Shown here: in pieces, positions 932 through 62,859 of the stretch
Layout of the letters: each line of letters starts with the position of its first letter
Numbering within the stretch: the stretch's first letter is position 1
Assembly (NCBI GenBank): GCA_947561395.2
Contig: OX387190.1
Coordinates: 28,948,858 to 29,012,857 of the forward strand
Source: Buxus sempervirens
Taxonomy: Eukaryota; Streptophyta; Magnoliopsida; Buxales; Buxaceae
Length of the DNA: 64,000 bases
Direction of reading: 5' to 3'
Translations under genes and position numbers: made by a program
The notes under the pieces: model-generated
What the model saw: the letters and a program-made list of their open reading frames with translations, nothing else
Told to the model about the DNA's origin: nothing
Databases searched by the model: none

Positions 932-1071
932 TAACCGGTAACTCAGGCCGGTTAATAACAACTCTGTTCATATCCGGTACATATTTCCGGATACAAAGAC
1001 ATATGCGGATATCCGGTTAGGTTGACCGGATACAATAAGGCATATTCTTATCCGGAATAGTATACCGGATA
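932..1071. promoter_or_regulatory. Dyad array 1: four 23-bp TATCCGG/CCGGATA units, 39-bp period
   Basis: Units lie at 932-954 (variant TAACCGG/CCGGTTA), 971-993, 1010-1032 and 1049-1071. Each has 7-bp inverted arms and a 9-bp spacer, and unit starts are exactly 39 bp apart. The same structure recurs at 12464-12563, 16596-16657 and 17345-17484. The function is unknown. Regular dyads beside promoters suggest a protein-binding operator (inference). Confidence 0.85.
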
Positions 1072-1399
1072 CATTCAAAAAATGCACAAATTGGCTTTTC
1101 AGCCCAAATTTTCAAAATAAAATGCCTAAAACACTGTGGATAATCCTTAGGCACCCCGAAAAGAACATAAGAAATGTTCCCAAAAATACAAACTCAAAAA
1201 AAAAAATACAAAAAAAAAAAAAAAACAAAAAAGGATAAAACATTCTTTCAAGATTTAACCTAAGTTTGAAAATCAAAGAGGAAACCAAGGTGTCATATTT
1301 TTTGACACCAACTCAACTCAAGCATATGTCAATCCAGCTTTAGAACTGGAAAATCTTCTAAAATGCATCAGATTTCAAATCAAAAAAAAAAAAAATAAA

Positions 1400-2212
1400 A
1401 ACCTTTGGTTGGTTACTTTTATCAATCAAATCAAAAAAAAAAAAATGAAAACCTTGGTTGGTTATTTTTATCAATCAAATCAAAAAAAAATGGGACACTT
1501 GGAAGCCCTAGAATATTCCATGAAAACCTTGGTTGGTTATTTTTATCAATCAAATCAAAAAAAAAATGAAAACCTTGGTTGGTTATTTTTATCAATCAAA
1601 TCAAAAAAAAATGGGACACTTGGAAGCCCTAGAATATTCCATGAAAACCTTGGTTGGTTATTTTTATCAATCAAATCAAAAAAAAAAAAAAAAATGAAAA
1701 CCTCGGTTGGTTATTTTTATCAATCAAATCAAAACATTTGTGGGATACTTGGATAGAATATTCCAAGACACCTTTGGTTGGTTATTTTTATCAATCAAAT
1801 CAAAACATTTGTGGGATACTTGGATAGAGTAGTCCAAGACACCTTTGGTTGGTTATTTTTATCAATCAAATCAAAACATTTGTGGGATACTTGGATAGAG
1901 TAGTCCAAGACACCTTTGGTTGGTTATTTTTATCAATCAAATCAAAACATTTGTGGGATACTTGGATAGAGTAGTCCAAGACACCTTCGGTTGATTATTT
2001 TTATCAATCAAATCAAAACATTTGTGGGATACTTGGAAGCCCTAGAATATTCCAAGACACCTTTGGTTGGTTATTTTTATCAATCAAATCAAAAAAAAAA
2101 TGAAAACCTTGGTTGGTTATTTTTATCAATCAAATCAAAAAAATTGGGACCCTTGGAAGCCCTAGAATATTCCATGAAAACCTTGGTTGGTTATTTTTAT
2201 CAATCAAATCAC
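1400..2212 (+). repeat. 71-bp tandem repeat with shorter variants
   Basis: Units share the core GGTTGGTTATTTTTATCAAT. The clearest copies begin at 1771, 1842, 1913 and 1984, exactly 71 bp apart. Flanking units are about 47-76 bp because a segment carrying TGGGACACTTGGAAGCCC or an A-run is present or absent. About a dozen copies lie just upstream of gag. Tandem arrays in untranslated parts of Tat-lineage elements are known and can seed satellites. Confidence 0.95.
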
Positions 2213-2322
2213 AAAAAAAAAAAAAAACAAAAACAAAAACAAAAAAATTTTTTTGGCTGGTGTTCACCTAACCTACTGGTTTACATATATAGGGGTGTGA
2301 CTCAAGCTAAGTGGAAGCTAAC

Positions 2323-5300
2323 ATGTTCTATTCATTTTTTTTCCCTCAGGTACATTTACACTTATTGGCAATCATTGCTCCCGTGACCAGATCCAAAGCA
2401 AGAACAATGAATACTGAAGAGAACCAAGCCCAAGCTACCGTCCCTGCTCAGGACTTTACTCAACTGCAGGAGCAAGTGGCTGGTCTGGCCAAAATGCTGG
2501 GGGACCTACTGGCGGCTCAGGCCCAACAGGCCCAAGCCCCGAACCCGGCATCTACTTCCCATCAGGCACCACCACCTCAGGCCTACATTCCGCCTCCGGT
2601 TCAGCCCATGCCTGAGCCCATTTCTGAACCAGTCCCTGAACCCATTCTGATCAGGGAAAATATGGCGGAGTCTGAGAAAGAGCTGGAGAAAGAAAAGGCC
2701 CGAGATGAGATGGAAAAGAAAATGCTGCTGAGGATAGAAAGAATCCAGGCAGAGCTGAAAGAGGTGAAGGGGGGAGGCAGCCATGCAGGCACCACCTTCG
2801 AGGACCTGTGCATGTACCCGGACGTCTGTCTACCGGCTAAGTTCAGGTGCCCGGATTTTGACAAGTTTGATGGCACGGGCTGCCCATTAAGCCATCTGAA
2901 ACTATACTGCGGGGCCCTGTGCCAGTTTGGCCGGGACGATGGAATACTGATCCAGCTCTTCCAGAGGAGTCTGACCGGGTCAGCCCTTCGGTGGTTCGCT
3001 ACAGTGGACCATGGAAGGATTAGAAGGTGGAAGGACTTGGCCGATGCTTTCCTGGACCAGTACAAGTTCAACTCTGAGATCGTGCCGGACCGGTACGACA
3101 TGATGAGGATGACCAAGGGGAAGGATGAACCGGTACGGCAGTATGCCAAGAGATGGAGAGAGGCCGCCTCCCAGGTCAGGCCACCTATGCAAGAGCCAGA
3201 GATGATCTCCACATTTATGGGCACACTGGGGCAGCCCTTTTACAACCATTTGGTGGGCCAGATCACCACCAACTTTGCTGCCTTGGTACAAGTGGCGGAC
3301 CGGATCGAGGAAGGGGTCAGGTCAGGAAGGCTGATAGACTACTCTACTCTGACTGGGCAGTCTGATTCCTCTGCCTCCATGGCCCAGAAGAAAGGGGCCG
3401 GATTTAAAAAGACGGGGGCCCGAAAAGAAGGGGGGGTGAACCTGGTCCAGGCTCCTCCAGCCAAGAAGCCACTTCATGTGAGCATCTCGACACCCCAACA
3501 GGCCCAGCAGGCCCAGCAGTTGTACCAGACCCCGCTGAATGTCAACTTCTCTCCTTCCGTGCCAGCTAACACAAGGAGGACTTTTTCTAAGGAAGAGCGG
3601 GATGCCTGGTTCGCGGCAAGAAAGAACCGGGTTTTCACCCCTCTACCCATATCTCTTTCCCAACTATTGCCAACCCTGCTAAAGGGTGAATACCTGACTC
3701 TGAAGGAGCCTAACCCGAATGCCACCAGGGGAAGAAATTTTGACACATCGGTCACCTGTGACTTCCACATGGGTGCACCGGGGCATTCTACAGATACCTG
3801 CTGGGTATTGAAGCATGCGGTCCAGGACCTGTTGGACCAGAAGGCTTTGGTCTTTAACACTGCTGCACCCGCCCCGTCGGGGAATGATATTGGGCAGAAT
3901 CCTCTGCCTTACCACAATGGGGCAGGCCCATCCAACTCCATCACTGCCATATCCACCACCAGAAGGGCCTTTGACCCGTCACAGCTCATAGCTCCCGTGG
4001 GGACCACGGTCCAGGTCCGATTTTTCCCAGAAGAGGAAGAAGAGGAGATCAACATGGTCTCCCAAAAAAATAATACAGCTGCTGAGGACATAAGTTCCTC
4101 TTTGAACCGGGTCTCATCTCTTATGACCCAGATGAATACTGCAAGGCCCCCATTGGTCTTGAATTGCAGTCCACCCATTTGCTCCCCATCCAAGCCGTCT
4201 AAGGCTCCACTGGTCATCAATCTTGACCCCACCACTGCTTCCATCACTTCTTCTGTCCCCACCAAACCCAAACTTCAACCCCTGGTTGTAAATGTGCAGC
4301 CAGCCCATACTATCCCTAAGCCGGCCCATACATCCCGGTCCAAACTCCAGCCATTAGTGGTTAACATCCCTAAATTAGCCTATTCAGAGGCCGCTGTACC
4401 ATGGAACTACAGCGAGGGAATCACGGCTACGGTTCCAATGGTCAGGAACCAGAACCAGGAGGAGGTGAACCTCATGACGAGGTCGGGGAGATGTGCAGGG
4501 GGTGAAGAGAAGGAGAAAGAGACAGAAGTGGAGAAAGAAAAAAAAGAAAATGAAGAAAAAAGAAAACAAAAAGGAAAAAATAAAGTGGGAGAAGACACCC
4601 CCCAGGGTGCAGAAAATGAGGCAGCAGACCTCATAAAAATAATAAAAAAGAGTGAATTCAATCTTGTGGACCAGCTAAACAAGGTCCCGGCCCAGATTTC
4701 AATACTGGGCCTTTTGCTAAATTCTGAAAAGCACAGGGATGCATTGTTAAGGGTGCTACAGAGTGCACACGTATCCCAGACCATTGATCCGGACCAGCTT
4801 GGTAAAATGGTTGGTCAAATATTGTCACATAATGTGATAAGTTTCTCAGAGGGTGAGATCAGCCCAGGTGGGTGTTATCATGTGGACCCTTTGCACATCA
4901 CTGTGCTTTGTAAGGGCTGCATGGTTGCACGGGTTTTAATTGACAACGGGTCAGCGTTAAACGTTTGCCCGTTAATCACTTTTACCAAGCTGGGTCTGGA
5001 CCAGTCAAGGATCAAAAGAAATGGACGGATAGTAAGGGCTTTTGATAGCTCCAAGACCCACTCCCTAGGGGAGATTGAACTGCCGGTCACAATTGGGCTG
5101 AATATCTTTAACATCACATTTGAGGTGATGCATATACCCGCAGCCTTCAATCTGCTCCTAGGAAGGCCGTGGATACATTCGGCTAGGGCAATACCATCCA
5201 CGCTCCACCAAAGAGTGAAGTACATAAGAGGGCAAAGGGTGATAACAGTCCTAGCCGAAAACTTGGTGCCGCCCATCGTGTCACCTGATGTACCATTAAT

Positions 5301-6111
5301 AAATGTGGACTTGACTGTCGACAAGATTGCATTCCACTCATTTCAATTTGAGGCGGTCAATTACATACCTGGGGGGTGTGAGAAAAAGAAGGAAAAGGGG
5401 ACCACTGCAGAGAGGATGGTCAAGAAAGTGATGGAGAAATACCACTTTCACCCAGGGAAAGGCCTGGGGATCAATCTGCAGGGGATGGTGGAGCCAATCA
5501 CGGCTAAGAAACTGATCCCCAAGGTAGGGTTGGGCTTCAAGCCCAGAGGCTGGAGAAGAATGAAACACGAAGAAGGGGAGAGCAGAAGCAAAGGAAAACT
5601 CCCTCACTTAAGGGAAAGTTTCCCTAAACCCTCCTACATAATCCAAATTTCTCCGCCTATGGACCAATCAAAACCTCCCTACTACAACATCAACCCATTT
5701 CAGAAGCCTGTTGTTTCGGCCCTACAACCCTATAACCCCTCTCCAATACTGGGAGCAGCAGATGGGCTTGGGCCACAGCCCGAGCAGCAGTCAGACTATT
5801 CTGAAGATGTTGGGGCCTTCTTCGCCATGACTGAAGGCGAAAAGACTGACGGTGACATGGACCTGCCGTTCATTGACTGGGCCGCAGTGAAGATTCCAGA
5901 GGAGGTCACTTCTGGACTGAGCCCCGTAGCAGAAAAGGGCAGTACCCACCCGGTGATGATGGCATCGGATGCTGGGCTTGAGGAGCAGGCTTTCCCTATT
6001 TCCCCTGCTCCCAAAAATTTTGTACTAAACAATTGGGAGGAAACTCCCCTTACCTTTGAAGCAGCGTTAGTTCGGCAAACTGACGCGGCTTCCAAAAAAA
6101 AACTCCAATAG
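2323..6111 (+). CDS. Gag-protease polyprotein of the Tat/Ogre element
   Basis: This 1262-residue frame encodes the capsid precursor and the protease that matures it. A proline/glutamine-rich and charged N-terminus is followed by a retrotransposon gag domain (about residues 175-340, with CPDFDKFDGTG and GSALRWF). A histidine/cysteine knuckle-like motif, CDFH...GHSTDTC, lies near residue 480. A Lys/Glu-rich linker follows, then an aspartic protease with active site DNGSALN near residue 874 (4942-4953). A G-patch-like segment (about 1026-1080, GKGLGI...GLGFKP) is typical of this lineage. I take the first ATG at 2323; the ATG at 2407 is an alternative because the family N-terminus VTRSKART precedes it only narrowly. 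It ends at TAG 6109-6111, inside an overlap with the pol frame, where an A9 run could allow frame change. Confidence 0.93.
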   Translation: MFYSFFFPQVHLHLLAIIAPVTRSKARTMNTEENQAQATVPAQDFTQLQEQVAGLAKMLGDLLAAQAQQAQAPNPASTSHQAPPPQAYIPPPVQPMPEPISEPVPEPILIRENMAESEKELEKEKARDEMEKKMLLRIERIQAELKEVKGGGSHAGTTFEDLCMYPDVCLPAKFRCPDFDKFDGTGCPLSHLKLYCGALCQFGRDDGILIQLFQRSLTGSALRWFATVDHGRIRRWKDLADAFLDQYKFNSEIVPDRYDMMRMTKGKDEPVRQYAKRWREAASQVRPPMQEPEMISTFMGTLGQPFYNHLVGQITTNFAALVQVADRIEEGVRSGRLIDYSTLTGQSDSSASMAQKKGAGFKKTGARKEGGVNLVQAPPAKKPLHVSISTPQQAQQAQQLYQTPLNVNFSPSVPANTRRTFSKEERDAWFAARKNRVFTPLPISLSQLLPTLLKGEYLTLKEPNPNATRGRNFDTSVTCDFHMGAPGHSTDTCWVLKHAVQDLLDQKALVFNTAAPAPSGNDIGQNPLPYHNGAGPSNSITAISTTRRAFDPSQLIAPVGTTVQVRFFPEEEEEEINMVSQKNNTAAEDISSSLNRVSSLMTQMNTARPPLVLNCSPPICSPSKPSKAPLVINLDPTTASITSSVPTKPKLQPLVVNVQPAHTIPKPAHTSRSKLQPLVVNIPKLAYSEAAVPWNYSEGITATVPMVRNQNQEEVNLMTRSGRCAGGEEKEKETEVEKEKKENEEKRKQKGKNKVGEDTPQGAENEAADLIKIIKKSEFNLVDQLNKVPAQISILGLLLNSEKHRDALLRVLQSAHVSQTIDPDQLGKMVGQILSHNVISFSEGEISPGGCYHVDPLHITVLCKGCMVARVLIDNGSALNVCPLITFTKLGLDQSRIKRNGRIVRAFDSSKTHSLGEIELPVTIGLNIFNITFEVMHIPAAFNLLLGRPWIHSARAIPSTLHQRVKYIRGQRVITVLAENLVPPIVSPDVPLINVDLTVDKIAFHSFQFEAVNYIPGGCEKKKEKGTTAERMVKKVMEKYHFHPGKGLGINLQGMVEPITAKKLIPKVGLGFKPRGWRRMKHEEGESRSKGKLPHLRESFPKPSYIIQISPPMDQSKPPYYNINPFQKPVVSALQPYNPSPILGAADGLGPQPEQQSDYSEDVGAFFAMTEGEKTDGDMDLPFIDWAAVKIPEEVTSGLSPVAEKGSTHPVMMASDAGLEEQAFPISPAPKNFVLNNWEETPLTFEAALVRQTDAASKKKLQ

Positions 6112-9100
6112 TGGAATGCCATTTCCCTGAAGGTTCTAATGGGCCTTCGTCTTCAGGGGAATTATGTTTAGAAGGCCCACAAAAAACCCAAAAAGATTTT
6201 TCTATTTTTTCTAGAAAATTTAATTTTTTCAAAAAAGTCCAAACCACTTATGAACCATATAATCAGACCGAATTGGACCAGGTTGAATATGACTTCGACC
6301 TTGAGCTCGACTTTGATCTCATGGGGGTCGAAGAAGAGACCGAGGTCGAAGAAGAAGACGTTCCAAAAGAAATTGAATACCAATTGGAACGTCATGAAAA
6401 GGGGGTCCAACCTAATATTGAGGAGACCATATCCATAAATCTTGGGACCGAAGAGGACCCAAAAATTGTGAAAATCGGGTCATGCTTGTCTGATGTGCAG
6501 AAAATTGAAATGTCACAATTCTTGGCAGATTACAAGGATGTGTTCGCTTGGTCATATCGGGACATGCCGGGGTTGGACACTGACATGGTGGTGCACAAGT
6601 TGCCAATTTTGCCAGGGGTTAAGCCGATTAAGCAGAAGCTGAGAAGATTGAAGCCTGAATGGACCTTGAAGGTCAAGGACGAAGTGGTCAAACAATTCCA
6701 AGCTGGATTTTTGGCAGTCTCTACATACCCTGAGTGGCTTGCAAACATAGTGCCGGTACCAAAGAAGGACGGGAAGGTCCGAATGTGCGTGGACTATAGA
6801 GACTTGAACAGGGCAAGCCCAAAGGACGATTTTCCGCTTCCACACATCGACATCCTGGTCGATAATACTGCGGTACATAGCCTGTTTTCCTTCATGGATG
6901 GGTTCTCAGGATATAATCAGATCAAGATGGCTAAGGAAGATCAAGAGAAAACAGCATTTATCACACCTTGGGGCACATTCCACTATACAGTCATGCCGTT
7001 TGGGCTTAAAAACGCTGGGGCAACATACCAGCAGGCCATGACTGCACTATTCCATGACATGATCCACAAGGAGATGGAGGTCTATGTGGACGATATGATT
7101 GCCAAATCATGCAAAGAGGAGGACCACTTGATCAATCTGAAGAAAGTGTTTGATCGGCTCAGGAAGTACAGTCTACGGCTTAACCCGGCTAAATGCGTCT
7201 TTGGGGCTACATCAGGGAAGTTATTGGGGTTTATAGTGAGCCGAAGAGGAATTGAAATTGACCCGGCAAAAGCCAAGGCCATAATTGAAATGCCAGCACC
7301 CAGAACTGAGAAGGAGGTCAGGGGCTTTCTTGGAAGGATTCAATACATAAGCCGGTTCATAGCACAGCTCACTGCTATTTGTGAACCAATTTTCAAACTT
7401 TTGAGGAAAGATAACCCGACGGTCTGGAATGAGGACTGCCAGCAGGCATTTGACACAATAAAGAGGTATTTGCTGAACCCACCTGTGCTAGTGCCACCAA
7501 CTCCAGGAAGACCACTGATCCTGTACTTGTCAGTGTTGGAAACGTCAATGGGATGTGTCTTGGGGCAGCATGATGAGACTGGTAGAAAAGAAAGGGCAAT
7601 TTACTATCTGAGTAAAAAATTCACGGAATATGAAGCCAAATACTCACCATTGGAGAAGACTTGTTGTGCTCTAGTGTGGGCCACTCAGAGGCTAAGGCAT
7701 TATTTCCTTAGTCACTCCACACTATTGATATCCCGGATGGACCCGCTGAAATATTTATTTGAGAAACCGGCATTGACTGGCAGAACGGCTAAATGGCAAC
7801 TACTACTGTCCGAGTTTGACCTCACGTACATCACCCAGAAGGCAATCAAAGGTCAAGCCATAGCTGATCACCTGGCTGCACATCCTTTGCCAGAATATCA
7901 ACCCTTGAAGACCAACTTCCCAGATGAAGCAATTCTGTACACTGAAGAGGAAGACAGTGAGAGTTCTTGGCAGATGTTCTTCGATGGGGCCGCCAACATG
8001 AATGGGAACGGAATAGGGGCAGTCTTGGTCAAACCAGATGGTTCACACATCCCAATTGCAGTAAAGCTGAGATTCCAGTGCACCAATAACATAGCAGAAT
8101 ATGAAGCATGCATAATTGGATTGCAAGCAACCATGGATCACGGAGTAGAGGAACTTGACGTATACGGGGATTCGAGTCTTATCATCTTCCAAACAACTGG
8201 TGAGTGGAAAACCAAGGATCACAAATTGATCCCCTATCACCAGTATTTGGAAGAAATAAGCACAAATTTTACTCGAATTTCCTTCAACTATATGCCAAGG
8301 GCCAAGAATCAGTTTGCGGATGCTCTAGCAACCTTGGCTTCAATGGTCAGCATACCAGAAGGAGTAGACATCAGACCACTGGAAATTGAGGTCCGAGATG
8401 AACCGGCTTACTGTCTCGTTCTAGAGGGAGCACCAGAAGAAGCACCATGGTTTCAAGATATCAAAAATTTCTTGAACAATCGGAGTTTGCCAGAAAATGC
8501 CACTGCTACTGAGAAGAGGACAATACAGAGATTGGCTGGTCAATTTCTGCTAAGTGGTGGACATGTGTACAAGAGGTCACATAATGACATTTTGCTAAGA
8601 TGCGTAGCCAAGGCTGAATCGGAAAGGCTGATTGAGACTGTACATGGAGGAGTCTGTGGGCCCCATATGAGTGGGCACATGCTGGCTAAGAAGATCCTGA
8701 GGCTGGGATACTACTGGACAACCATGGAGCACGATTGCTGTATACATGTCAGGAGGTGCCATCAATGCCAAATCTATGCAGATAACAAGCATGCACCCCC
8801 AGGTGAGCTGCACAACATGACATCACCCTGGCCCTTCTCTATGTGGGGCATAGATGTCATCGGCATGATCTCCCCTAAGGCATCGAACGGACACAGATTC
8901 ATCCTGGTGGCGATTGACTACTTCACTAAGTGGGTGGAAGCAGCCTCTTATGCAAATATCACAAGCAACCATGTTATTAAGTTTTTGAAGCACAACATTA
9001 TTTGTCGCTATGGACTGCCAAGTGCTATAGTATCAGACAATGCTTCAAATATTAAGAACAAGGACATGAAGAAAACGTGTGAGCAGTTTCAGATTACCCA

Positions 9101-9695
9101 CCACAAGTCAGCTCCGTACAGGCCAAAAATGAATGGGGCAGTAGAAGCAGCAAATAAAAATATAAAGAAAATCATTCAGAAGATGGTAGTGAGTTACAAA
9201 GATTGGCATGAAATGCTGCCACTTGCTCTACATGCCTACAGAACCTCGATCCGAACCTCAACTGGGGCAACCCCGTACTCCCTAGTCTATGGGATGGAAG
9301 CAGTCTTGCCCGTGGAAGTAGAGATCCCCTCACTCCGAGTGCTCATGGAAGCAGAACTAGAAGAAGCCGAATGGGTCCAGTCAAGACATGATCAACTTAA
9401 CCTGATAGAAGAAAAACGGTTGAAAGCACTTTGCCATGGACAGTTGTACCAGAAGAGAATGGCCCGGGCCTACAATAAGAAAGTGAGGCCCAGAACTTTC
9501 CAAGAAGGAAACTTAGTGCTAAAGAAAATCCTACCATTTTTGGAAGACCCTCGTGGTAAGTTCAAGCCCAATTGGGAAGGCCCATATGTCGTCAAGAAAG
9601 TCCTATCAGGGGGAGCACTCATCTTAACAGAAATGGATGGGTCAGATTTTCCTGAGCCCATTAACTCTGATGCGGTAAAAAGGTATTTTCCTTGA
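6084..9695 (+). CDS. Pol polyprotein: RT, RNase H, second RNase H, integrase
   Basis: The protein makes cDNA and integrates it. Counting from 6111 (1194 residues), an acidic N-terminus leads to reverse transcriptase (MCVDYRDLN near 222; catalytic YVDD near 325, at 7083-7094). A first Ty3-type RNase H (about 463-590) begins LYLSVLETS where an Asp is expected, so it is probably inactive. A second, archaeal-type RNase H (about 620-745) keeps its acidic residues in FFDGAA, AEYEA, YGDSS and NQFADALA. Integrase has an HHCC zinc module (about 843-887), a DDE core (WGIDVIG, VSDNAS, GAVEAANK) and a C-terminal GPYVV segment. There is no ATG at the left edge, so translation probably depends on fusion to gag-pro. 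No stop or frameshift is present; it looks functional. Confidence 0.95.
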   Translation, partial: RGFQKKTPIVECHFPEGSNGPSSSGELCLEGPQKTQKDFSIFSRKFNFFKKVQTTYEPYNQTELDQVEYDFDLELDFDLMGVEEETEVEEEDVPKEIEYQLERHEKGVQPNIEETISINLGTEEDPKIVKIGSCLSDVQKIEMSQFLADYKDVFAWSYRDMPGLDTDMVVHKLPILPGVKPIKQKLRRLKPEWTLKVKDEVVKQFQAGFLAVSTYPEWLANIVPVPKKDGKVRMCVDYRDLNRASPKDDFPLPHIDILVDNTAVHSLFSFMDGFSGYNQIKMAKEDQEKTAFITPWGTFHYTVMPFGLKNAGATYQQAMTALFHDMIHKEMEVYVDDMIAKSCKEEDHLINLKKVFDRLRKYSLRLNPAKCVFGATSGKLLGFIVSRRGIEIDPAKAKAIIEMPAPRTEKEVRGFLGRIQYISRFIAQLTAICEPIFKLLRKDNPTVWNEDCQQAFDTIKRYLLNPPVLVPPTPGRPLILYLSVLETSMGCVLGQHDETGRKERAIYYLSKKFTEYEAKYSPLEKTCCALVWATQRLRHYFLSHSTLLISRMDPLKYLFEKPALTGRTAKWQLLLSEFDLTYITQKAIKGQAIADHLAAHPLPEYQPLKTNFPDEAILYTEEEDSESSWQMFFDGAANMNGNGIGAVLVKPDGSHIPIAVKLRFQCTNNIAEYEACIIGLQATMDHGVEELDVYGDSSLIIFQTTGEWKTKDHKLIPYHQYLEEISTNFTRISFNYMPRAKNQFADALATLASMVSIPEGVDIRPLEIEVRDEPAYCLVLEGAPEEAPWFQDIKNFLNNRSLPENATATEKRTIQRLAGQFLLSGGHVYKRSHNDILLRCVAKAESERLIETVHGGVCGPHMSGHMLAKKILRLGYYWTTMEHDCCIHVRRCHQCQIYADNKHAPPGELHNMTSPWPFSMWGIDVIGMISPKASNGHRFILVAIDYFTKWVEAASYANITSNHVIKFLKHNIICRYGLPSAIVSDNASNIKNKDMKKTCEQFQITHHKSAPYRPKMNGAVEAANKNIKKIIQKMVVSYKDWHEMLPLALHAYRTSIRTSTGATPYSLVYGMEAVLPVEVEIPSLRVLMEAELEEAEWVQSRHDQLNLIEEKRLKALCHGQLYQKRMARAYNKKVRPRTFQEGNLVLKKILPFLEDPRGKFKPNWEGPYVVKKVLSGGALILTEMDGSDFPEPINSDAVKRYFP
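6094..6102 (+). promoter_or_regulatory. A9 homopolymer in the gag-pro/pol overlap, candidate -1 frameshift site
   Basis: The gag-pro frame reads TCC AAA AAA AAA CTC CAA TAG. The pol frame is the -1 frame and is open from 6084 (after TGA 6081-6083). The 27-nt overlap 6084-6110 therefore contains nine consecutive A, a classic slippery context. Ribosomal -1 frameshifting or transcriptional slippage would make a gag-pro-pol fusion. Ogre elements are known to use splicing between these parts, so an intron remains an alternative. Confidence 0.55.
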
Positions 9696-10632
9696 GTGAA
9701 TATTTCTAGGAAATGATCCGAGGCCATTTTTCTTTATTTCCTTCAAAAATTCTAATCCCTAGTCTAGCCAAGTCGAGCCGGTTCGTTTCTTTGATCAACC
9801 TAAACCGGATTTACAGTCAAATTGGGGCAAAATCAATTGGGGCAAAAGTGAGGAAAGAAAAAGAAAAAGAGAGGAAAAGCAATGGAAATGGCAAATGAAA
9901 GCCAAGTGTGAAAAAATGCAAAAAATGCAATTTGGGGGAAAAGGGTTAAATTCATCATGACTGTAAGTCCGGTTGACCTATTTCCACACTTGAAAATTTT
10001 TTGGGCCTTTAATACCCTTTCTTTCATAAACTGAGCCTAGCCTTTATTTCGTCCTATTTTTAAGCCCTCGGTGATCTTAGTTTGTTCATTCAAATGTCAG
10101 AGTAAGATTGGTGATGACGGAATTCAGAAGCCGGCCCTAGTGAAAACCGTAACTGGCGCTAAGGGCAATATTGGCAAAAAGAAAAAAAAGAAAAAAATAA
10201 GAAAAATGAAAGAAAATCAGAGGTTGAGTTGATAATGGGGATTTGAGCTTCAAGCAAAGTTGGCATGAGCAGAATGGGGCAGTTTTGGCAGTTGGGGATG
10301 ACTCTAAAGGTCCTAAGATGGACGGTTCTGATCCCTCGGTATTTTCTGGACTACCCTTTTCATTATTTAACCTGGTTTTAATTCTCTTAATTATAGGTGA
10401 TTAAGTGCATGGACCAAATTTCAAAAAAATACAAAAAAAATATAAAAAGGAAAAATTATACTTTGGCCAGTGATGAGAAATCAAATACTTTTCATAAAAC
10501 CTTTGTTTTTACAAGCATCTGAGCATTCTGAGGCCAATAATATAAAAACTTTATTTTGAATTAAATCCTTTGTATTTCCACTATTGGAGTTCAATTTTGT
10601 ACAAAGGTATGAAAAATGTGCAGGAAATAAAG
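9696..10632. other. Non-coding spacer between pol and the convergent antisense genes
   Basis: No gene is seen. Purine-rich stretches (9850-9890, 10175-10215) and an A/T-rich part (10420-10590) would hold the 3' end of the sense genes and of the antisense transcript, which converge here. Confidence 0.6.
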
Positions 10633-12334
10633 CTAGTCTCCTAGCCGCTCCTCAAGTTCCCGAATCCGAGCTGCCTGAGCTGCAATGACTCCTGAAGCCC
10701 CCTCTGCAGCGGGATCACTCAAGAAGGAAATGACCTCATCTGAAAGGGCCTGCCTGATCCGCATACTCCTAAGGCTAGCCAAAGTATCCTGGTACTTCTG
10801 CCGGATCATACGGACCTCGAAGCGACGGGCCTGCCTCTGCTCCTCCAGCTTCTCTTCCACAGCAATACGGCGTGAGATCTGCTCCTCAAGCTGCCTCTCC
10901 AGATAAGCGCCCTGTATCCTGAGCTCCTGGGCCTCCCGTACCCATATCTGCTGAAGCCGCTTATGAGAAGCCCGCTCAGACTCTAGAATGTCCTCATAGG
11001 TGGGAGCCAAGACTACAGGAGGATCTTCGGGTACCGGGGCCTGAGTCTGTATCTGTTCCTTAATCCAGAAGATATAATCCTTCACATGGGCTTCTGAGAA
11101 GACTGGACCATGCATGAAACGGACATAGGACCACTCCTTCATCAACCAGGCATTCAGCTTCATAGAAAGGGGCCCAAGACGATCCTCATATCCACATGGG
11201 ATGATAATCCCCTGGGTCGCTCGGAACTGACGAAGGACCCGCAGAGGAAGATACAACACTGCATGCTTCAGGCCCGCTAGGATCAGAAAGTTGCGGTCAC
11301 GGAAGCTAATCACTGTCTCTGCATTAGGCTGATAAGTACCAGGCCATCTCACCTGGTCATCCTGAAGCGAGCCCAAGAAAGTGAACCAGCCCTGTTTGCC
11401 CCCTGGAATATCGGGACACCCCCTGTTGCTCATCAAGAGGGGAACTTTTAGACTCGGGAAGAAGTGCCGATTGATCTCTTCAATCTGGCTCAAATGATCA
11501 AGTAGCCAAAGCTGCAAAGGAAGAGAGAGGTGTCAGCACATTGTAAAAAAAAAAAAAAAAAAAAGCAAGAAAGGCAAAAAAAAGAAAGCCAAAAAGCAAG
11601 AAAAAAGAAAAAAAAAACTTTTTTACCTGCAGGATCTGGGCACATGCTAGGAAGCGTTTCGACTTTCTATTGTAGCAGTCGGTTAAGGCCTGATATATCC
11701 CAGCTAAAATCATAGGGGCCAACCTCTCCCGCTCCCTAACCTGGCATATCACAGAAATCAAGGCCAAGTCCACCTCATCATCATCCCGTGGGAAAAGCAA
11801 CTGGTTGACCACTATCAGGGTCAACGCATTGAATCGGGCCTCCTTATCTTCCCCCCTCAAAAGCTTCTCAGTCAAAAAAGCCTTAGATAGGGTCAAAAGG
11901 GTGTCAGAATCCCCCAAGTCCTTCTTCCCTATGCCCAAAAAAGTAGAAGCTTCCTTCTTGTAACTGGGCCTAAGAGGTGGATTCACCACATTCTCATCAA
12001 ACCTCAGGCCCAGGATGGTTTCCACCTCCTCAATGGTTGGGGTCATCTCATGGGTCCCAAAGCGGAACAAGTTGAGATCAGGAACCCAATGACCAATCAT
12101 GGCCTCTATAATCTCCCACTTGAAGGGAACCTTGGGAATGAGCAGGGTATGGCCTAGGTTGGTAGTACCCCATCTCCTCTCCTCATCTAGGGTCATAGAG
12201 TTAACCCACCTTGTGTAAAAGGAATCCACAGGGTTGTACCTAGTGAGATTTGGGGGTTTTGATCTAAAAGGTTGTTTTGCAGGGGAGGCAGTGTGGACAG
12301 ACAATAATGGGGCAGAAGATGATCCAGATTCCAT
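10633..12334 (-). CDS. Antisense gene A: DUF7745-like protein, two exons
   Basis: Exon 1 runs 12334-11627 and exon 2 11511-10633. The intron starts CAG|GTAAAA and ends TTTGCAG, and the frame is kept (528 residues). The N-terminal two thirds resembles the plant DUF7745 family, a relative of the plant mobile domain: FRFGTHEMTPTIEEVETILG, later FLACAQILQ across the splice and VLRQFRATQG. A long charged coiled coil follows (about 400-470, ERQLEEQISRR...) and the protein ends in ELEERLGD. I start at ATG 12334 because the upstream ATG (12445) overlaps a TATA box. Extra antisense frames related to plant mobile-domain genes are known in Tat-lineage elements. The role is unknown; DNA binding or interference with silencing is inference. 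Confidence 0.8.
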
Positions 12335-12443
12335 TGGATTTGACGAGAGCAAGCTAGAACTCAAGAGAAGGAAAAAAAAGGCGAAAAGGGGGTTTCTAAA
12401 CTCAAAAACTAGTAAAAAATGCTCAAATCCCGAGGCAGGTTGC

Positions 12444-12450
12444 ATTTATA
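12444..12450 (-). promoter_or_regulatory. TATA box of antisense gene A
   Basis: The minus strand reads CTATAAATGC, placing TATAAAT about 110 bp before the chosen ATG (12334). Dyad array 2 begins only 13 bp further upstream. The spacing fits a compact promoter with its regulatory sites directly adjacent. Confidence 0.65.
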
Positions 12451-12463
12451 GCATCTTTTAACA

Positions 12464-12563
12464 TATCCGGTAACTCAGACCGGATACAAAGGCTTTAGTA
12501 AGATCCGGATAAGTATACCGGATACAAAGACCAATCAATGTATCCGGTATGTCAGACCGGATA
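12464..12563. promoter_or_regulatory. Dyad array 2: three 23-bp units in the promoter of antisense gene A
   Basis: Units are 12464-12486, 12502-12524 (left arm GATCCGG) and 12541-12563. Arms are 7 bp and spacers 9 bp, with starts 38 and 39 bp apart. The array lies between the stop codon of antisense gene B and the TATA box of antisense gene A. Confidence 0.85.
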
Positions 12564-12783
12564 CCGAGAAAAAATGCAAAAAAAGAGCTAAGGATGAAAA
12601 AATCCAAATTTTTTACCTGTTTTACCTGCTTACATGTCATAATTGCATAAAATGGAGAACAAAAGATGTGCAAGACATGATAGAATGAATAAAAAGTTTT
12701 TTCATATATATCTGGAAGTTTTGTACAGGGATGATGATAAATACATGAAAAATGAAAAAATCCTAATCTACTCCTATGCAGGA

Positions 12784-15447
12784 TCATCCCCCGCGTCCTC
12801 GGCCGCGTCCACCTCTACGGCCTCTCCCCCAAAGTGCTCGGCCTCTAGAGTATGCAAGGATCCGCTCGGCTGCATGGCGAGGATGCCGACCTACCACCTG
12901 CTGAAGATGATACTCCAAGCAATAATCCTCGAGATCTGGGGGAGGAGCAGGAGTAGAATCTGGGGAAGAAGCCTCAGGCTCATCAGCAACCGGCCCAACT
13001 GGGCCCTCATCCAAAGCATCCTCTGCTCCCGCGACTCCAGAAGGCCCAGCATCAGCAGCAGAGGGGACAGGATCAGTAGTAGCTGAGTCCACAGAAAAGA
13101 GAAAAATCAGAGGACTCAAATATAAGGAAGAATAAAAGAGGAGAATTAAAAGAAGATCATACCAGGAATGTCTGCGGAAGGAGCAGGAGGATCCGGCTCG
13201 TCGAGACCAGCCACTGGGGCATCCTCGGGATCAGCAGCCCGAGCCGGAGATGGGTCAGGAATCAGGAAATCATGCTCAAAGAAGGCGTCCTGATCATGGA
13301 CCGGGCCCTGCACAAGTCAAACAAGCCTATCAGAATAGCAGAAACAGGAAAATAAGGAAAGAAATGAACATATGAGAAGGCCAGATACCTGTCTAGACTG
13401 GAGCTCAGCAACTAAGGCCTCCAGCTCCCTAATCCGGGCATCCCGCTGGGCCACGACCGCATCGTGCTCAGCGATCATATCATCGATCGCGGCCCGCTGG
13501 CTCTCAAACCGGTCCCGGATGGTATTCAGCTCGTGTACCTGTCAACAAGAACAGAAGGGGATCAGAAATGCATACAGGCAGAAAGGCAGACAAAAACAGG
13601 AAGAATACAAGGCTTACCGTGTCCTCGTGGATCCGGATACGGATCCCGCCAATCTCTGTCACCCCGGCACGAGTGGGTCGATCCATCAAGCACCCAATGG
13701 ACACCCTCTGGAACCACTCGTCATAATCTCCGGCTGCTGTGAGCCCCTCGGCATCCAGGAAGTGATCGAACTGATCGACATCGAAGCCAGGAAGGAGAGT
13801 ATCGGGACCCACAGCAGGAGGAGGGACGGGGATGCGAAGTGCGCCAGTGTGCTGGTAGTACAGGCGCTCTCCCAAGTACATCACCCTACCAAGCCTCCCA
13901 AGGAAGCACTGGTAGGGCTGACGTCGGAGATCTCTCTCAAAAGCATCCTGTACTGCCATCTCACGGGCAACTCCGACATCCACGTCATCTGGACGGGATA
14001 GAATGAGCTGCAAAGAAGCAAAGTGGTCAGATACAGTCAAGATACAGGAAAGAAAATAGAAGAAAAAGAATAAGACTTACATCAGATCGGCGGGCACGGT
14101 CTAAGTGCACCCGGGCAGTGCGAGGCTGGCTCCTATCAGCATCTCGGACCTGGGCCGACCACCGCAGAGCCACAGGAAAATCCGCGACCTCAGGTACCGG
14201 GGATGGGCGGAAGAAGGTCATATAGGTGTACATGAACACCTAGCAAAAGAAAAATCAGCCAAGAAAAGATAAAGCCTAAGGAATTAAACCAGACAGATGA
14301 ATTCAATACCTGCAGAATCTGCCAGAAGAACCGGCTGCTAACTCCATCGCCTCTCGGGGATGCCAGACCTCGAACTGCACGGCACAGTCCGGCCAAGATG
14401 GTCCCATAAATGAGCCGACCCCATGCTAGCTGGCGGGTCTGATGGAGATCTCTCAAAGCATCCAGGAAAAGTGGGCTGACGCCGGTCGTATCCTCCGGGA
14501 AAAAGCAGCTCCCAAGCATCAACAGGAATACGTGCCGGAAGATAGGCACAAAGGCTGCATCCTCCACGGAGATGGTCTCATGTCTCCTCTCGAAATGTCG
14601 AGCCAGACTCTCCCGCAGCCAGCTAATGGAGAGCCGGCCACTCCTCCCATCCCAGGCAGTAGGTGGCAGGGCCTGATACCCCAGAAGGAGGCCAATATCC
14701 TCCGCAGAAGGCCGCTCCAAGATGATGGTCCGCCCAGTCAATGGAATACCGGTGATCATCACAAAATCCGAGGGGCGGATCCCCAGCTCCACGTCCGGCA
14801 AATGAAATGACTGAGTCTCGGGGAAATATCTCTCCATCATGGCAAAAATAAGCGGACGGTCGGCTCTGAACGATGGAATACTGAGGAAGTGATCCAGGTG
14901 GCACCTCCCAAACTCCCGCCTGAGTGCCGGAGAAAGTGACCGTGCCAACTCGCTGAATCTCCCCCAGCTGCCGCGCAAGTGGGAAGAGTAGTAGGGAAGC
15001 GGCACATCGGCCCTGATGCACATAGAGGGGTGGCTATCCAAGCCATGGAGGAGCTCTGTATCATGCACAGAAGCCCTCAACTCCTCAGAGACCCCTGCCA
15101 GAGCTACAGCAACCCCCTCTGGAGCCATATCTCTGGCTCTGCCTCGGCCTCTACCACGGCCTCTCTCGCCCTCAGGGGCCTGATCCTGAACTCTGCCTCT
15201 GCCTCTGCCTCGACCCCGAGCCGGTGCAACCACGGGCTAAATTTCAAAGAGAAAGGTGTGAAGATTGATGTAGGAAGAGAATGAAGAAAGGAAAATTTTG
15301 AAAATCTACCTCAGCAGAGCTCTCTCTGGAGTCACCTAATGGCTCCGACACGGTGGCGCTGGAACTCGCCTCCGTACGAGCCCGCGAAGTGGAGGGCTGA
15401 TCAGCTGGGTCAGCCTCCTCTCGCACACGAGAGCGACTCCTAGCCAT
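12784..15447 (-). CDS. Antisense gene B: plant-mobile-domain (PMD)-like protein, seven exons
   Basis: Exons on the minus strand are 15447-15310, 15236-14310, 14239-14081, 14007-13618, 13538-13389, 13307-13163 and 13082-12784. All six introns have GT and AG ends, and the lengths (138, 927, 159, 390, 150, 145, 299) keep one open frame of 735 residues from ATG to TGA. Exon 2 opens with an Arg-Gly-rich stretch and holds a PMD-like fold (ERYFPETQSFHLPDVELG..., GIPLTGRTI). Exon 5 is a coiled coil, exons 6-7 are acidic and proline-rich, and the C-terminus is again RG-rich. The PMD family includes Arabidopsis MAIN and MAIL1, which act in transposon silencing. The conserved splicing and intact frame imply selection. 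Its biochemical role is not known. Confidence 0.8.
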
Positions 15448-16590
15448 CTACACAGGGAAGTGTTTTATGAATTTCAGTTTAAATTTATGAAATTTTGCTT
15501 TGCTTATAGTTCACGTTCAGTTTTACATGATTTTTCCAGGTCATCGTGAATCGTGTCCCGAGGTTATTTGGTATTTCTGTCCAATTAACAAGATATTCTA
15601 TTGCTAAGGCACTTCCAAATGTTGTCCTAAGATATTTCTGTAAAGTTTAATATTTTCTTAATTTGCTTTCAGGATTACCAGACGTAATCAGAAAAACAAT
15701 GTGCAGAGCAAAGTCCATTCAAGAACAAGTCATGGAGGCACCGCCTCTATTGGAAAAGTGTTAAAGTGAAAAGTCCAAGCAGGTTGAAAAAAAAAAAGAA
15801 CAGCATGGCATTTGCGATCCAAGGGTAGTCAGAGGCATTCATTATCAGCAGTGCAAAACCAATCAATGGACAGAACCAATTGAAGAGACAGGGCAAAATT
15901 CAAATACAAATTCCTACCATGAACAATTCAATTGGGAATTGGTATGAGAACAAAAATATAGCAAGACTTACAGCAAATGAGGAATTAAAGTTTGTTCCAA
16001 CAAGCAATCAGGAAACAAGTAGTATGCAATCAGAAAATTGTCAAACATGGTCAATCTCAATTCATATAGCAATTCAGTTCAAACAGGAATCATTCAGAAA
16101 TTGCCAATTGATGGGTAATCCAAAGTTCTCCACTGCTAAGACAGAAATATGCAAAATTCGTCCAAGCCACAACCAAGTTGCTACCAATGTGCAATCGGTC
16201 CACAAAAAAAAAAATTTTTTTTCTGCTTACCAATAGTGCCGAACAGGGGATTGCAATGTTGGAGGAAGGATCGGCCGGAAGCAGGAAGGATGCTTGGGAT
16301 GCCGAAAATCGAAGAGGACCCTCGAAGCCTGGGCAATAGCGACTGACAGTCGTTTGGAAGCAAAAAACCAGAAAAATACCGAACTAGGGCTCGGTCGCGG
16401 CAATGTGTGAAGGTCGCCGGAGTTGCAGACAGTCGCCGGCAACAATGAAAGGCGCCGGAGCTACCGGAAATGGCCGGAGAGGAAGGAGCAATCGTCGGGT
16501 GAAGGAGAAGAGGAAGATAACCGGTCTGAGTAATCGGAGCAAGAAGAAAAGAAGAGGAAAAGTCGCGGTCGCGCGCGACTTAAGTAAACC
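15448..16590 (-). other. Probable 5' UTR exon and intron of antisense gene B
   Basis: On the minus strand, GTGTAG at 15448 sits exactly before the ATG and looks like a splice acceptor. CACTATTG|GTAAGC at 16231/16230 looks like the donor, giving a 783-bp intron. The stretch 16231 to about 16560 is C/T- and GC-rich like a plant 5' UTR. No protein-coding frame here is credible. This places the transcript start just downstream of dyad array 3. It is inferred from splice-like signals only. Confidence 0.5.
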
Positions 16591-16595
16591 TGCGG

Positions 16596-16657
16596 GATCC
16601 GGATACTCAGGCCGGATACCCGCAGACCCTGTATTATCCGGATACACTTACCGGATA
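16596..16657. promoter_or_regulatory. Dyad array 3: two 23-bp units upstream of antisense gene B
   Basis: Units are 16596-16618 (left arm GATCCGG) and 16635-16657, with starts 39 bp apart and the same arm and spacer lengths as the other arrays. It lies directly upstream of the probable 5' UTR exon of antisense gene B. Confidence 0.8.
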
Positions 16658-16662
16658 CTAAA

Positions 16663-16846
16663 GAAAAAAAAGAAAAAAAATAGAAAAAAGCAGAAAAAAA
16701 TAGAGAAAAAAAACAGGAAAGAATAGAAAAAAAAGGAAATGAAAAGAAAAAAAAAAGAAGAAAAGGAAATGAAAAAAAAAAAAAAGAAAAAAAGAAAGGA
16801 AAAAAAAAAAGAAGAAAAGAAAAAAAAAAGAGAAGGAAAAGGAAAG
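16663..16846 (+). repeat. Purine-only low-complexity tract
   Basis: About 180 bp of A and G with almost no pyrimidines. It may have grown by slippage. Frames read through it (poly-Lys or poly-Phe) are not genes. Confidence 0.9.
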
Positions 16847-16873
16847 AGCAAAATTGTGCTACAATTTCTATTT

Positions 16874-17110
16874 TCTCAAAATCCTATTTTTGTCTTGAAA
16901 TCCACCTCACAGCCACGAGAGCTCTGTGGAATTTGGGACAACTCTGGGAAATGTGCCTGGTCAAAAGGATGATATCCACTCAATTTTCAACTTGGTTTGA
17001 TAAAAAATCAGTTTTCAAAAAATCCTATTTTTGGGCTTAAAATCCACTTCACAGCCACAAAGGGCTCGGTGGAATTTAAGAACTCTTGGAGAGATGCCCC
17101 CTTAAAGTGA
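16874..17110 (+). repeat. Two diverged copies of a ~144-bp repeat before the polypurine tract
   Basis: Both copies share AAATCCTATTTTTG, then AAATCCAC.TCACAGCCAC, then a GGTGGAATTT-like end. The first begins near 16877, the second near 17021. No gene is present. The repeat sits in the 3' untranslated part of the element. Confidence 0.75.
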
Positions 17111-17240
17111 GGGCTTTTTGGCAAATCTCCACTCAAAAATGGTTTTCTACAGAAATTGAATTGAACCGAGCAAATCATGCTCAAGGGAATGCAATTTGGG
17201 CTTGTCTACTCTTTGCAGCTCACTGCTTCGCAGCTCCCAC

Positions 17241-17253
17241 AAAGAGGGGCAGT
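17241..17253 (+). promoter_or_regulatory. Polypurine tract
   Basis: AAAGAGGGGCAGT lies immediately before the TGTAGACACC start of the 3' LTR. It is the expected primer site for plus-strand cDNA synthesis and fixes the LTR boundary and element orientation. Confidence 0.9.
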
Positions 17254-17344
17254 TGTAGACACCCCAAATTGCACAAACAATCATCAAAAATCATTATCTC
17301 CTGGAAAGCCAGCACAGAATTTGAAGAAAATAAACTTTTACCTG

Positions 17345-17484
17345 TATCCGGATACTCAATCCGGATACAAGTACTCCTTCATGTATCCGAAATGATTATC
17401 CGGATACATGTGAGCCTTAATGTATCCGGTACCATGTACCGGATACCTTAAGGCCCTTTGTTATCCGGTCTGATATACCGGATA
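17345..17484. promoter_or_regulatory. Dyad array 4: four 23-bp units in the LTR
   Basis: Units are 17345-17367, 17384-17406, 17423-17445 and 17462-17484, each start exactly 39 bp after the last. Arms are TATCCGG (one TATCCGA) and CCGGATA with a 9-bp spacer. The array lies about 160 bp upstream of the LTR TATA box. Related arrays are recognisable at the same place in the two solo LTRs near 39471-39610 and 42170-42305. Confidence 0.85.
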
Positions 17485-17641
17485 CCTTAAGTTTGCTCAA
17501 AATTAGGGTTTTCCGAGAGCTTTTCACTTTTACCATCATGTCCCTCATTAAATGAGGGGAAATCGCGGAAATAACCTTAGGGTTTAGGTTGGAGGGGTTC
17601 TAGACATTAAGTTGTGTCTACCAATGACCTTAGCCCTTGCC

Positions 17642-17650
17642 TATAAATAG
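17642..17650 (+). promoter_or_regulatory. LTR TATA box
   Basis: TATAAATAG, conserved as TATAAATAGG at the same position in the solo LTR (about 39779) and, reversed, in the minus-strand LTR (about 41990). Transcription of the element would start about 30 bp downstream. Confidence 0.8.
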
Positions 17651-19529
17651 GAGCCTTCTCCTTGAGCAAATGGCACAGAACTCTTGTTTTGAATTCTCGC
17701 AAAGAAGAACTCCAAGAGAAGACGAAAACCGCTGTGGAATCGCCTCCAGCACTCAGGTAAGCCTCAACTTTTCTTTTTATTTTCTGTCTTTACATTCCTA
17801 GATCTAGATCTCTTCTTCTACCTTTCTGTAGTGTAAAGCCTTGTTTGCATGTGTGGAAATCCTTCCCCGGCTCAAAGTATCTCAAGACTCCCCTAGCCGT
17901 AAAACGTGAAGGCGGATCTAGGAGAAACGAGACTGGGGATTGACCCTAGTGCTAGGACCTATGTAGCATAAGGCCTTTTTGATTGATTGTAAACCGTTCC
18001 ATATTCAAAGTACCCTTGATTATCTTAAAGAGAACAGAGGGAAACGATAATGGAACGGAACCCTAGGCTATGCTAGAACCTATTTTGTTGAATCTATATG
18101 CATGTATATGGATCTTGCTTGGTTTTTTTCACTTTTGCACACATATCACTATTTTGGCGGGATAGGCTCATATTTGGGGTTTATTGCATTTATTGTGATA
18201 AATCTCAAATAAATGGCCTCAATCAATTCTGGAATGCTTTTCGGATGATTTTGAAGTATTTGTGTTCATCTTACACGAATTTCATTTTTTATCAATTTTC
18301 GGATTTGGTTTTTACTCAAAAGTGGCTTAGCTTGACAGCACCTGTACCCTTACTTCGGACGTCCGTAACTTCATCATCCGGATGAATTTTGGGGCGATTC
18401 CAGAACCATGGGAAAGGTGAGGCTATCTAGTTTATGTCCACCAAATTTCATGAATTTCTATCTAGCCGATTTTTGACACTTCTCTGTCGAAGTTAAGTGG
18501 ACAGTTCAGGTCCAAGTACAGAACTTGTCACTTCGACGGACCGCCATGTGTTCGTTTTAAGTCCGATTCGAGTGATTTTTATTTCTGGGTACTCCTTTAT
18601 GAGTCTATTTTCAAATCCAGTTGGTTTCATAATTTTTGGATTCCATTTGAATTATTGGTAGCCGATTTACTCAGAACTGCTCATTTGCATTTTTCTGGGT
18701 AAATCTGTGATCTTCGGGGCCTGTTCGGGAGACCACCCAAGGCACATCCGAAGGGATTTTTGTATGAGGCTAGTTTCTTTGGAAAGATGGCCATACAGAC
18801 TTCAATCACACCAAATTTCACGGATTTCTATGTAGTCGATTTTTCTAGACAATTTTCCAAAGTTGCCCACTTACTACTTTTAAAAATCCCCAACAGCAAC
18901 TTCAAAGGAGCATAACTCCTAGGATTTTTATCGGATTAACTTGAGATTTTGCATGAGCTCCTTATTTATCATAATCTTTCAAATAGAGTTGGTTTGAATC
19001 AATTCAGAATTGGATTTGAAGGAGTTCAAGGCAAATGGCATACTTTTTACCGAATTTTCCGGATTTGATTCAAATTGGTTTTTGAGCAACTTCTACTTTG
19101 ATTTTCATCTTTTGAAATACTCCAGAAGTGATATTGACATAAGAGAAGATCTAAAATCCATTTGGATCTTCATGTGAAAATATCATACATTGTTCCTTTT
19201 TCAAGGTTTCTCATGATTTTTAGCAAGCTTTCTTACTTTGTTTTTTGCATGAATATACACTTGGCAACCACTTTGTGTGGATGAGTGGGGGTGCCTAACA
19301 CCTTCCCCCGTTCATAATCTAATCCCCTTACCCATCTCTGGATTAGATTTTCAAGTAGGATTATTTTTATCCTAGAATTTGTCTTTTGGCTATTTTTGCC
19401 TACTTTTGTATCTTTGGTGTCCATTCTCACCCCAAAATCATGAATGGTGGCGACTCTCCCAATTTTTGCGTTGAGCCCGTGTGTTGACGGAGGGACGATC
19501 ACTCCGGTGATTTTTTCCCATGTCTCACA

Positions 19530-62200: not shown

Positions 62201-62859
62201 GTTCTTGGCCATGCTGCAGCACCAAATTTTGGGTAAGTAGCTTCCCACTCCATCGATACCAAGAACCTATCCAACTTCGACATGATCGGAGATTGTTGAT
62301 TTCTTGACCACGTAAACTTTGCCCCTTTGAGTGGAACATCAATTAAATTCTGATCATCAATGAAATTAGAGAAATCTTTCATGGCTTGTGAGCAATACCT
62401 TCCTCCTATCCTTTCCGATGGAAACCTTATCACATTGAAATCCCCCCCAATACACCACAGCGTGCCACCAATTCCTCTTAAGGCAGCTAACTCCTCCCAC
62501 AACTTCCCAGATTTTGCCATATCATTCGGCCCATCAACCCCGGAAATTAACACCAGTTCGTTTCCTTCTATTTCCTTCAAGAGTACAGAAATTGCATACT
62601 GCCCCACCTCCACCTGTGCTTTCACATATTTCCTACTTTTCCAAGCTGTAACGATACCCCCTTGCGCAAGCAAGAGCACCCAATCAGCGCTGCCACTTTC
62701 CCAAATTTCGCCCATCAAAGACTGATTCAAGCTTCCAAGCTTAGATTCCTGAAGTATAATGACATCAGGATCCCACATCCTCAAACTAGCCTTCACTGCC
62801 ATCCCATTCTCCCGTGCATTAAGGCCCCTTACATTCCATGAGACAATCTTAATGATCAT
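59210..62859 (-). pseudogene. LINE ORF2: endonuclease and reverse transcriptase, several stops
   Basis: The endonuclease (62859-62023) starts MIIKIVSWNVRGLN and has GDFNVIRF and VSDHSPILL. In-frame stops between 62022 and 61852 separate it from the reverse transcriptase frame (to 59848), which has GPDGF, RPISLVGSFYKI, LRQGDP and a catalytic box FADN instead of FADD. Motif A reads KLDIEKA and then jumps to LLWYLL, so the YD part is deleted in frame. The last part (59795-59577, LPNRCILC, and 59592-59293) is in shifted frames. Enzyme activity is lost on three counts: stops, motif A deletion and Asp-to-Asn in the active site. Confidence 0.9.

Follow-up and report, generated by a model that had tools for sequence, protein, structure and literature searches.

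The window analysed here, a stretch of 64,000 nucleotides on C12 of the 676.5-Mb genome of Buxus sempervirens (contig OX387190.1), carries a long terminal repeat (LTR) retrotransposon with two antisense genes, A and B, and with arrays of a short dyad, TATCCGG-N9-CCGGATA. The sense strand encodes, in this order between 6084 and 9692, the Pfam domains RVT_1, RT_RNaseH/RT_RNaseH_2, RVT_3 and rve, the gag-pol arrangement of Ty3/gypsy elements of the Tat type; the Tat label is a presumptive one, based on these domains and on general background. A pair of long LTRs flanks the element, the 5′-LTR (L026) lying just outside of the window, upstream, and bearing the same four-unit array as its 3′ counterpart. 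Because the two LTRs are 99.56% identical over 2,279 bp, the insertion is, by this measure, young. The following features were assigned:

932..1071, no strand assigned: array 1, 4 units, in the leader that separates the 5′-LTR from gag (dyad search)
2311..9692, plus strand: gag (with a G-patch) and pol with reverse transcriptase, two RNase H-like domains and integrase (Pfam)
10633..12334, minus strand: antisense gene A, plant mobile domain (PMD)/DUF7745 protein, two exons (236 + 293 codons), putative start codon (Pfam)
12445..12450, minus strand: TATA box (TATAAA) of antisense gene A, separated from array 2 by 13 nt and unchanged in 6/6 copies
12464..12563, minus strand: array 2, 3 units, immediately preceding the TATA box of gene A (dyad search, copy comparison)
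13504..15447, minus strand: antisense gene B, PMD protein (Pfam; open reading frames and splice sites read from the sequence)
16596..16657, minus strand: array 3, 2 units, at the putative start of antisense gene B (dyad search, copy comparison)
17254..19532, plus strand: 3′-LTR, the interval matching the 5′-LTR (LTR-LTR match)
17345..17484, plus strand: array 4, 4 units, U3 of the 3′-LTR, separated by 157 nt from TATAAATAG downstream at 17642 (dyad search)

Copies of the element carry the dyad arrays at matching positions

The dyad search yielded 22 matches in the window, compared with a mean of 1.0 in 100 shuffled sequences (largest value 4). These include all 13 units that the initial annotation had assigned to the four arrays, at the coordinates listed above; nine are exact, three have one arm mismatch and one has two. 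The annotated period of 39 bp was likewise found, with a single interval of 38 bp within array 2, and a degenerate in-phase unit lies beside array 3, near 16518. Apart from a lone match with two mismatches at 10785, the remaining eight units form two further arrays:

39471..39610, plus strand: four units in a decayed solo LTR belonging to the window family (dyad search, LTR match)
42163..42302, minus strand: 4-unit array in an older solo LTR that is interrupted by a plus-strand solo LTR; some arms are of the TATCCGA kind (dyad search, LTR match)

The region 37677-42405 consists of a plus-strand solo LTR nested in a minus-strand solo LTR of the same family.

All ten clusters among the matches listed, which cover C1 up to 5.92 Mb, were retrieved and compared. 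Nine are copies or LTRs of the window family and one belongs to another family, and the units are arrayed in 10/10. Of the full-length C1 copies examined, 5/5 carry all five arrays at the same places, with four units in each LTR, four in the leader, four in array 2 and two in array 3. A sixth, shorter copy has units in LTR, leader and array 3; for array 2 there are none among the matches listed, the stretches retrieved from this copy lying outside its middle. Array 2 comprises only three units in the window because this copy lost exactly one 39-bp unit; the other five copies examined have four. The first unit of array 1 is changed on both arms (TAACCGG/CCGGTTA), likewise in six other leader copies, one of which (L011) has a further arm change. 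In two of the retrieved sequences, L001 and L022, a common sequence replaces the usual LTR start just upstream of the array.

The arms are conserved against spacers, inter-unit DNA and flanks

Four array sets (leader, array 2, array 3 and LTR) were compared pairwise, each in 6-7 element copies. Differences amounted to 72/3206 (0.022) in the arms, as opposed to 320/2061 (0.155) in the spacers, 367/2593 (0.142) in the inter-unit DNA and 2050/15427 (0.133) in the flanks, the latter figure being inflated since the LTR set includes flank outside of the LTR and the flank of array 3 lies beside A-rich sequence. The arms were the least divergent part of every set (leader 0.032, array 2 0.018, array 3 0.024, LTR 0.012), and the flanks of the leader array (0.066) and of array 2 (0.071) still exceeded their own arms. 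Thus, the comparison of arms with flanks that the initial annotation had proposed as a check came out against an ordinary, neutrally evolving satellite. Among 12 LTR copies of mixed age, including old solo LTRs, the corresponding values were 0.056 for arms, 0.332 for spacers, 0.278 for inter-unit DNA and 0.095 for the downstream flank. Here, the arm differences mostly concern the CCGG letters, with zero at the TATC positions and at the outermost A of the right arm.

Units of one and the same array behave alike. Over 228 unit pairs from 43 arrays, which include some LTR pairs of one copy, arms were 95.0% identical and spacers 39.2%, compared with 28.5% after shuffling, and the true arm mask showed the fewest differences among all 39 offsets. 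The geometry was surveyed in 34 sequences (224,055 bases, mostly picked for holding arrays). When exact arm pairs with spacers of 0-30 bp were collected, the spacer measured 9 bp in 117/120 and 22 bp in three, the latter reflecting palindromic overlap of units; no other length occurred. The half-site period was 39 in 74 cases and 38 in three, the remaining distances (13, 25, 26, 52) stemming from TATCCGGATA palindromes, and 310/317 exact half-sites lie inside arrays.

Taken together, these comparisons indicate that arms, 9-bp spacing and position are under selection, as cis-elements, and not merely copied, in agreement with the original proposal. A neutral satellite is contradicted because the arms are far less divergent than their surroundings, the true mask is the best one, and spacer length and period are fixed. 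Some spacers are exact inversions of one another, e.g., ATACTCAAT and ATTGAGTAT, and therefore spacer orientation seems to be free. In the LTRs, spacers are inverted between fixed arms (L014:213 versus L008:236), as if units flip via their own inverted repeats during copying.

Arrays adjoin the putative promoters of antisense genes A and B

As annotated, array 2 ends 13 nt from the TATA box of gene A. At the TATA position of gene B, TTTTATAAG is present in 3/7 copies and TTTACTTAAG in 4/7, including the window copy; the distance from array 3 to TTATAA is 9 nt in the one copy measured among the three with TATAA. Array 3 thus lies at the putative start of gene B, and array 4 lies upstream of the LTR TATA box at the distance given above, both as proposed. 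The claim that arrays mark every putative promoter of the element holds for the LTR, gene A and gene B; for array 1, which does lie in the gag leader, no neighbouring promoter was recognised. A GC-rich near-palindrome, AAGTCGCG-GTCGCG-CGCGACTT, is found at 16560-16581, immediately downstream of the TATA position of gene B, and is identical in 6/7 copies.

With Pfam scores of 51.5 bits (gene A) and 52.3 bits (gene B) against a curated cut-off of 34.9, both antisense genes encode members of the PMD family; the four antisense open reading frames tested gave PMD/DUF7745 or nothing. The start codon of gene B is probably located in the exon at 15447, past a putative leader intron. Across six copies of gene A, exon 1 had a ratio of nonsynonymous to synonymous divergence (dN/dS) of 0.05-0.21 and exon 2 one of 0.12-0.28; some of these copies contain stops, and in one (L009) 63 codons of exon 1 are missing from the alignment. 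For gene B, the PMD exon gave 0.04-0.09 at a synonymous distance (dS) of 0.28-0.52, with a stop in one copy; the following exon, truncated in two copies at the edge of the compared stretch, gave 0.04-0.30. These ratios indicate that both proteins are under strong purifying selection. The arm differences of array 3 (0.024) are far below the synonymous distances of gene B. A single-sequence structure prediction for PMD exon 1 was useless (mean pLDDT 36.9). Searches for protein homologues, in a protein set that probably lacks plant relatives, and for solved structures gave no match.

The dyad occurs in several symmetric types and in more than one family

Genome-wide, the exact TATCCGG-N9-CCGGATA unit occurs 28,399 times, compared with five matches to the reversed control pattern. 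The dyad is not confined to one family. The variant TATCCGA/TCGGATA occurs 8,452 times (control 2), and mixed GG/AA sites number 2,184 + 2,203 = 4,387 (controls 5 and 2). Independent arms would predict 15,795 mixed and 2,748 AA/AA sites. Because mixed sites are rarer and double sites commoner than this, there are, by these counts, two symmetric motif types rather than one decaying at random. A third dyad, ATACGGG-N9-CCCGTAT, has 633 exact sites (control 0). Multi-unit patterns were absent from viral contigs and present in two contigs of prokaryote genomes, which we take as chance background.

In L042, whose LTR is 72-81% like that of the window element, 13/18 arms read exactly TATCCGA and 17/18 have A at the last place; in L040, whose LTR resembles that of a second family described below, the latter holds for 7/8. 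We considered that TATCCGA arose by decay of methylated CCGG. The symmetry of the site predicts equal C-to-T change at the first C of CCGG, which was seen in 1/18 and 0/8 arms, respectively. TATCCGA does not look like CCGG decay because this counterpart is nearly missing. Mixed sites with TATCTGG, as expected from ordinary CpG decay, number 1,745; with independent arms, about 27 double TATCTGG/CCAGATA sites would be predicted.

The notion that the arrays are restricted to one retrotransposon had to be abandoned. Three retrieved stretches (L023, L025 and L027) make up one copy of a second Tat-type Gypsy family, whose proteins are 68-71% (pol) and 36-39% (gag) identical to those of the window element. 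It has two arrays in each LTR, with 12 nt between the array edge and a TATA box, TATATAAA. At E 1e-3, matches between its 5′-LTR region and the window are confined to the arrays and their edges; a 307-bp match of 69% in opposite orientation (L023:3501-3796) is with L019 and not with the window. L043, a relative of this family (DNA 77-88% identical to L025 and L027), likewise bears TATCCGG arrays. Ten stretches (L035-L044) were chosen regardless of arrays, four beside the window and six at round coordinates, and 6/10 contain an array of some type. One of them, the 10-kb stretch L041, belongs to a sister family (gag protein identity 60% to the window family) that has the ATACGGG dyad, with a 28-bp period, at the leader place held by array 1 in the window family, and degenerate relatives of it in both LTRs.

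Comparison with known systems

The closest parallel is VANC, an element-encoded anti-silencing protein of the VANDAL DNA transposons (Mutator-like elements, MULEs) of Arabidopsis (PMC5735166, PMC10398659). The motif bound by VANC21 is located outside the coding parts of VANDAL21; it is frequently repeated in tandem and differs between related elements (PMC5735166). In the VANDAL system, the element protein that binds the motif also removes DNA methylation. The arrays described here are likewise short motifs in tandem in non-coding parts, varying among relatives, although the likeness is limited in that relatives of both families contain the TATCCGA type. In contrast to VANDAL, the host element is an LTR retrotransposon, the site is a two-fold dyad with a fixed 9-bp spacer and a 39-bp period, and the proteins are of the PMD type; six element open reading frames given to Pfam had no match to DUF1985 or DUF287. 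Moreover, binding has been shown for VANC21, whereas the sites here are predicted ones.

Gypsy elements that encode PMD proteins have been described as PMD-A1/A2; Ikeda et al. assign the PMD-A clades to Gypsy elements only and speculate that MULE-captured PMD serves anti-silencing (PMC5418596). Unlike our element with its arrays, no cis-target is described for them in the excerpt available (PMC5418596). Related Gypsy elements of the Retand/Grande type carry antisense open reading frames, with tandem repeats, in the region from pol to the 3′-LTR, and these reading frames have been proposed as regulators of transposition (PMC11963269, PMC7264820). In Retand they mostly have TRP28, for which the four antisense frames tested here had no Pfam match, and the repeated units of our element are short dyads that lie in LTR, leader and promoters. 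The 'DOWN' motif of genes dependent on MAIN/MAIL1, CATGCAGTTT in the MORC1 promoter (PMC9899485), was rejected as a relative of the dyad, the sequences being unlike. Among the papers listed by searches for the motif or for PMD with anti-silencing and related terms, no title or abstract start described such arrays, which is no proof of absence.

A candidate regulator encoded by the element lineage

The dyad geometry, the symmetric change, the fixed spacing and the position by TATA boxes point to a dimeric DNA-binding protein as the reader of the arrays. We give about an even chance to the explanation that the arrays are predicted protein-binding sites kept by selection and most likely read by a PMD regulator of the element lineage, i.e., the product of gene A and/or gene B. 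Each site would be a two-fold dyad with 7-bp half-sites and a 9-bp spacer; arrays of roughly four such dyads occupy U3, the leader and the stretches immediately preceding the two antisense promoters. Cooperative binding by one PMD protein or both would switch on or de-silence the LTR as well as the proteins' own two promoters, resulting in positive feedback, and would extend in trans to every motif-bearing copy, including relatives without PMD genes. Protein binding, the PMD identity of the binder, and activation or anti-silencing over repression are all three what we infer from the sequence. An element-encoded reader is favoured over a host one because the motif differs between relatives, as with VANC targets (PMC5735166), and because two strongly selected accessory proteins have sites in their own promoters. 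PMD genes of tea yield phased small interfering RNAs (PMC10673657), which would fit a host countermeasure.

Several observations weigh against a PMD reader. In the second-family copy (L023/L025/L027), no PMD gene was detected by tblastn of A and B (1e-3) or by Pfam on four open reading frames between pol and the 3′-LTR; L043 has no tblastn match to genes A and B at 1e-5; and neither pol nor PMD was detected in L041. Array-bearing copies without a detected PMD gene therefore require either supply in trans or a binder other than PMD. The TATCCGA type is found in relatives of both families (L042, L040), so that motif type does not simply follow family, and the idea of one private circuit per family was dropped for this reason. 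The leader array has no recognised promoter beside it, and the genome-wide sites are related by descent rather than phylogenetically independent, so that their counts yield no probability. Finally, PMD proteins are not known to bind DNA, and chromatin interaction of MAIN/MAIL1 is described as not known (PMC9899485).

A serious, though in our estimate rather unlikely, alternative is that a host transcription factor binds the arrays, so that the elements exploit one host activator and the PMD genes merely have two of the promoters driven by it. This would account for the two second-family copies that have arrays without a detected PMD gene, for the TATCCGA type in relatives of both families, as expected for one common reader, and for arrays that abut TATA boxes like ordinary enhancers. 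Several symmetric half-site types, and a different arm at the same place in the sister family, are less expected with one conserved reader, and the ten clusters among the matches listed on C1 all lie in Gypsy elements or LTRs, host-gene sites having been searched no further. Motifs resembling TATCC/GGATA are known for plant transcription factors. Repression fits less well: it appears improbable to us that the sites are operators serving an element-encoded repressor that keeps copy number down by negative autoregulation. In its favour, MAIN/MAIL1, which are host PMD proteins, take part in silencing (PMC5418596), and a repressor could be expected to have sites at its own promoters; yet the sites lie upstream of TATA and not over TATA or the start site, which weakly favours activation.

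Somewhat less improbable than a repressor, yet still quite unlikely, is that the units act as RNA, the dyads folding into short hairpins in the genomic RNA for packaging, export or binding by gag or PMD. Changes on both arms do preserve pairing, and every array would, by its position, be contained in the full-length sense RNA, but such hairpins leave unexplained why arrays lie 9-13 nt upstream of TATA boxes at three separate promoters. Furthermore, C-to-T changes that leave a G-U pair are not favoured, with 1,745 mixed sites versus 4,387 for G-to-A, an argument that is weak because mutation rates differ. Least probable of all, and very much so, are slippage-copied units without function: the regular period and the exact unit loss in array 2 of the window would suit such a satellite, but within-array spacers are little above chance while arms are nearly identical, the true mask is the lowest of all offsets, and the arms persist in the second family, whose LTR resembles the window only in the arrays.

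Returning to the PMD regulator, we consider it possible, with somewhat less confidence than the reading of the arrays themselves, that plant Tat-type retrotransposons evolved, independently of VANDAL, a self-encoded sequence-specific PMD regulator with matching operators in LTR, leader and its own promoters. With at least three symmetric operator types in one genome (TATCCGG, TATCCGA and ATACGGG), several circuits may coexist, and PMD-less relatives would hijack them. What antisense accessory genes do in LTR retrotransposons of plants is, according to the literature, unknown (PMC7264820, PMC11963269). The arrays, with their 28,399 exact sites, offer the products of such genes a concrete candidate target that is both plentiful and precisely defined, and they reduce the question to a simple binding assay. 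If PMD is indeed the reader, sequence-specific self-regulation would have arisen separately in plant retrotransposons and DNA transposons, and there would be a model for how the host silencing proteins MAIN/MAIL1 originated.

Other repeats and elements in the window

Long tandem repeats lie between leader and gag both in the window (1375-2228; periods of 46, 71 and about 120 bp) and in L041 (3238-4415; about 39-48 bp), and their units look unrelated. Elements of the long interspersed (LINE) type with endonuclease and reverse transcriptase domains are located at 19488-25045 and 59848-62865 of the window, the first of which begins about at the end of the 3′-LTR.

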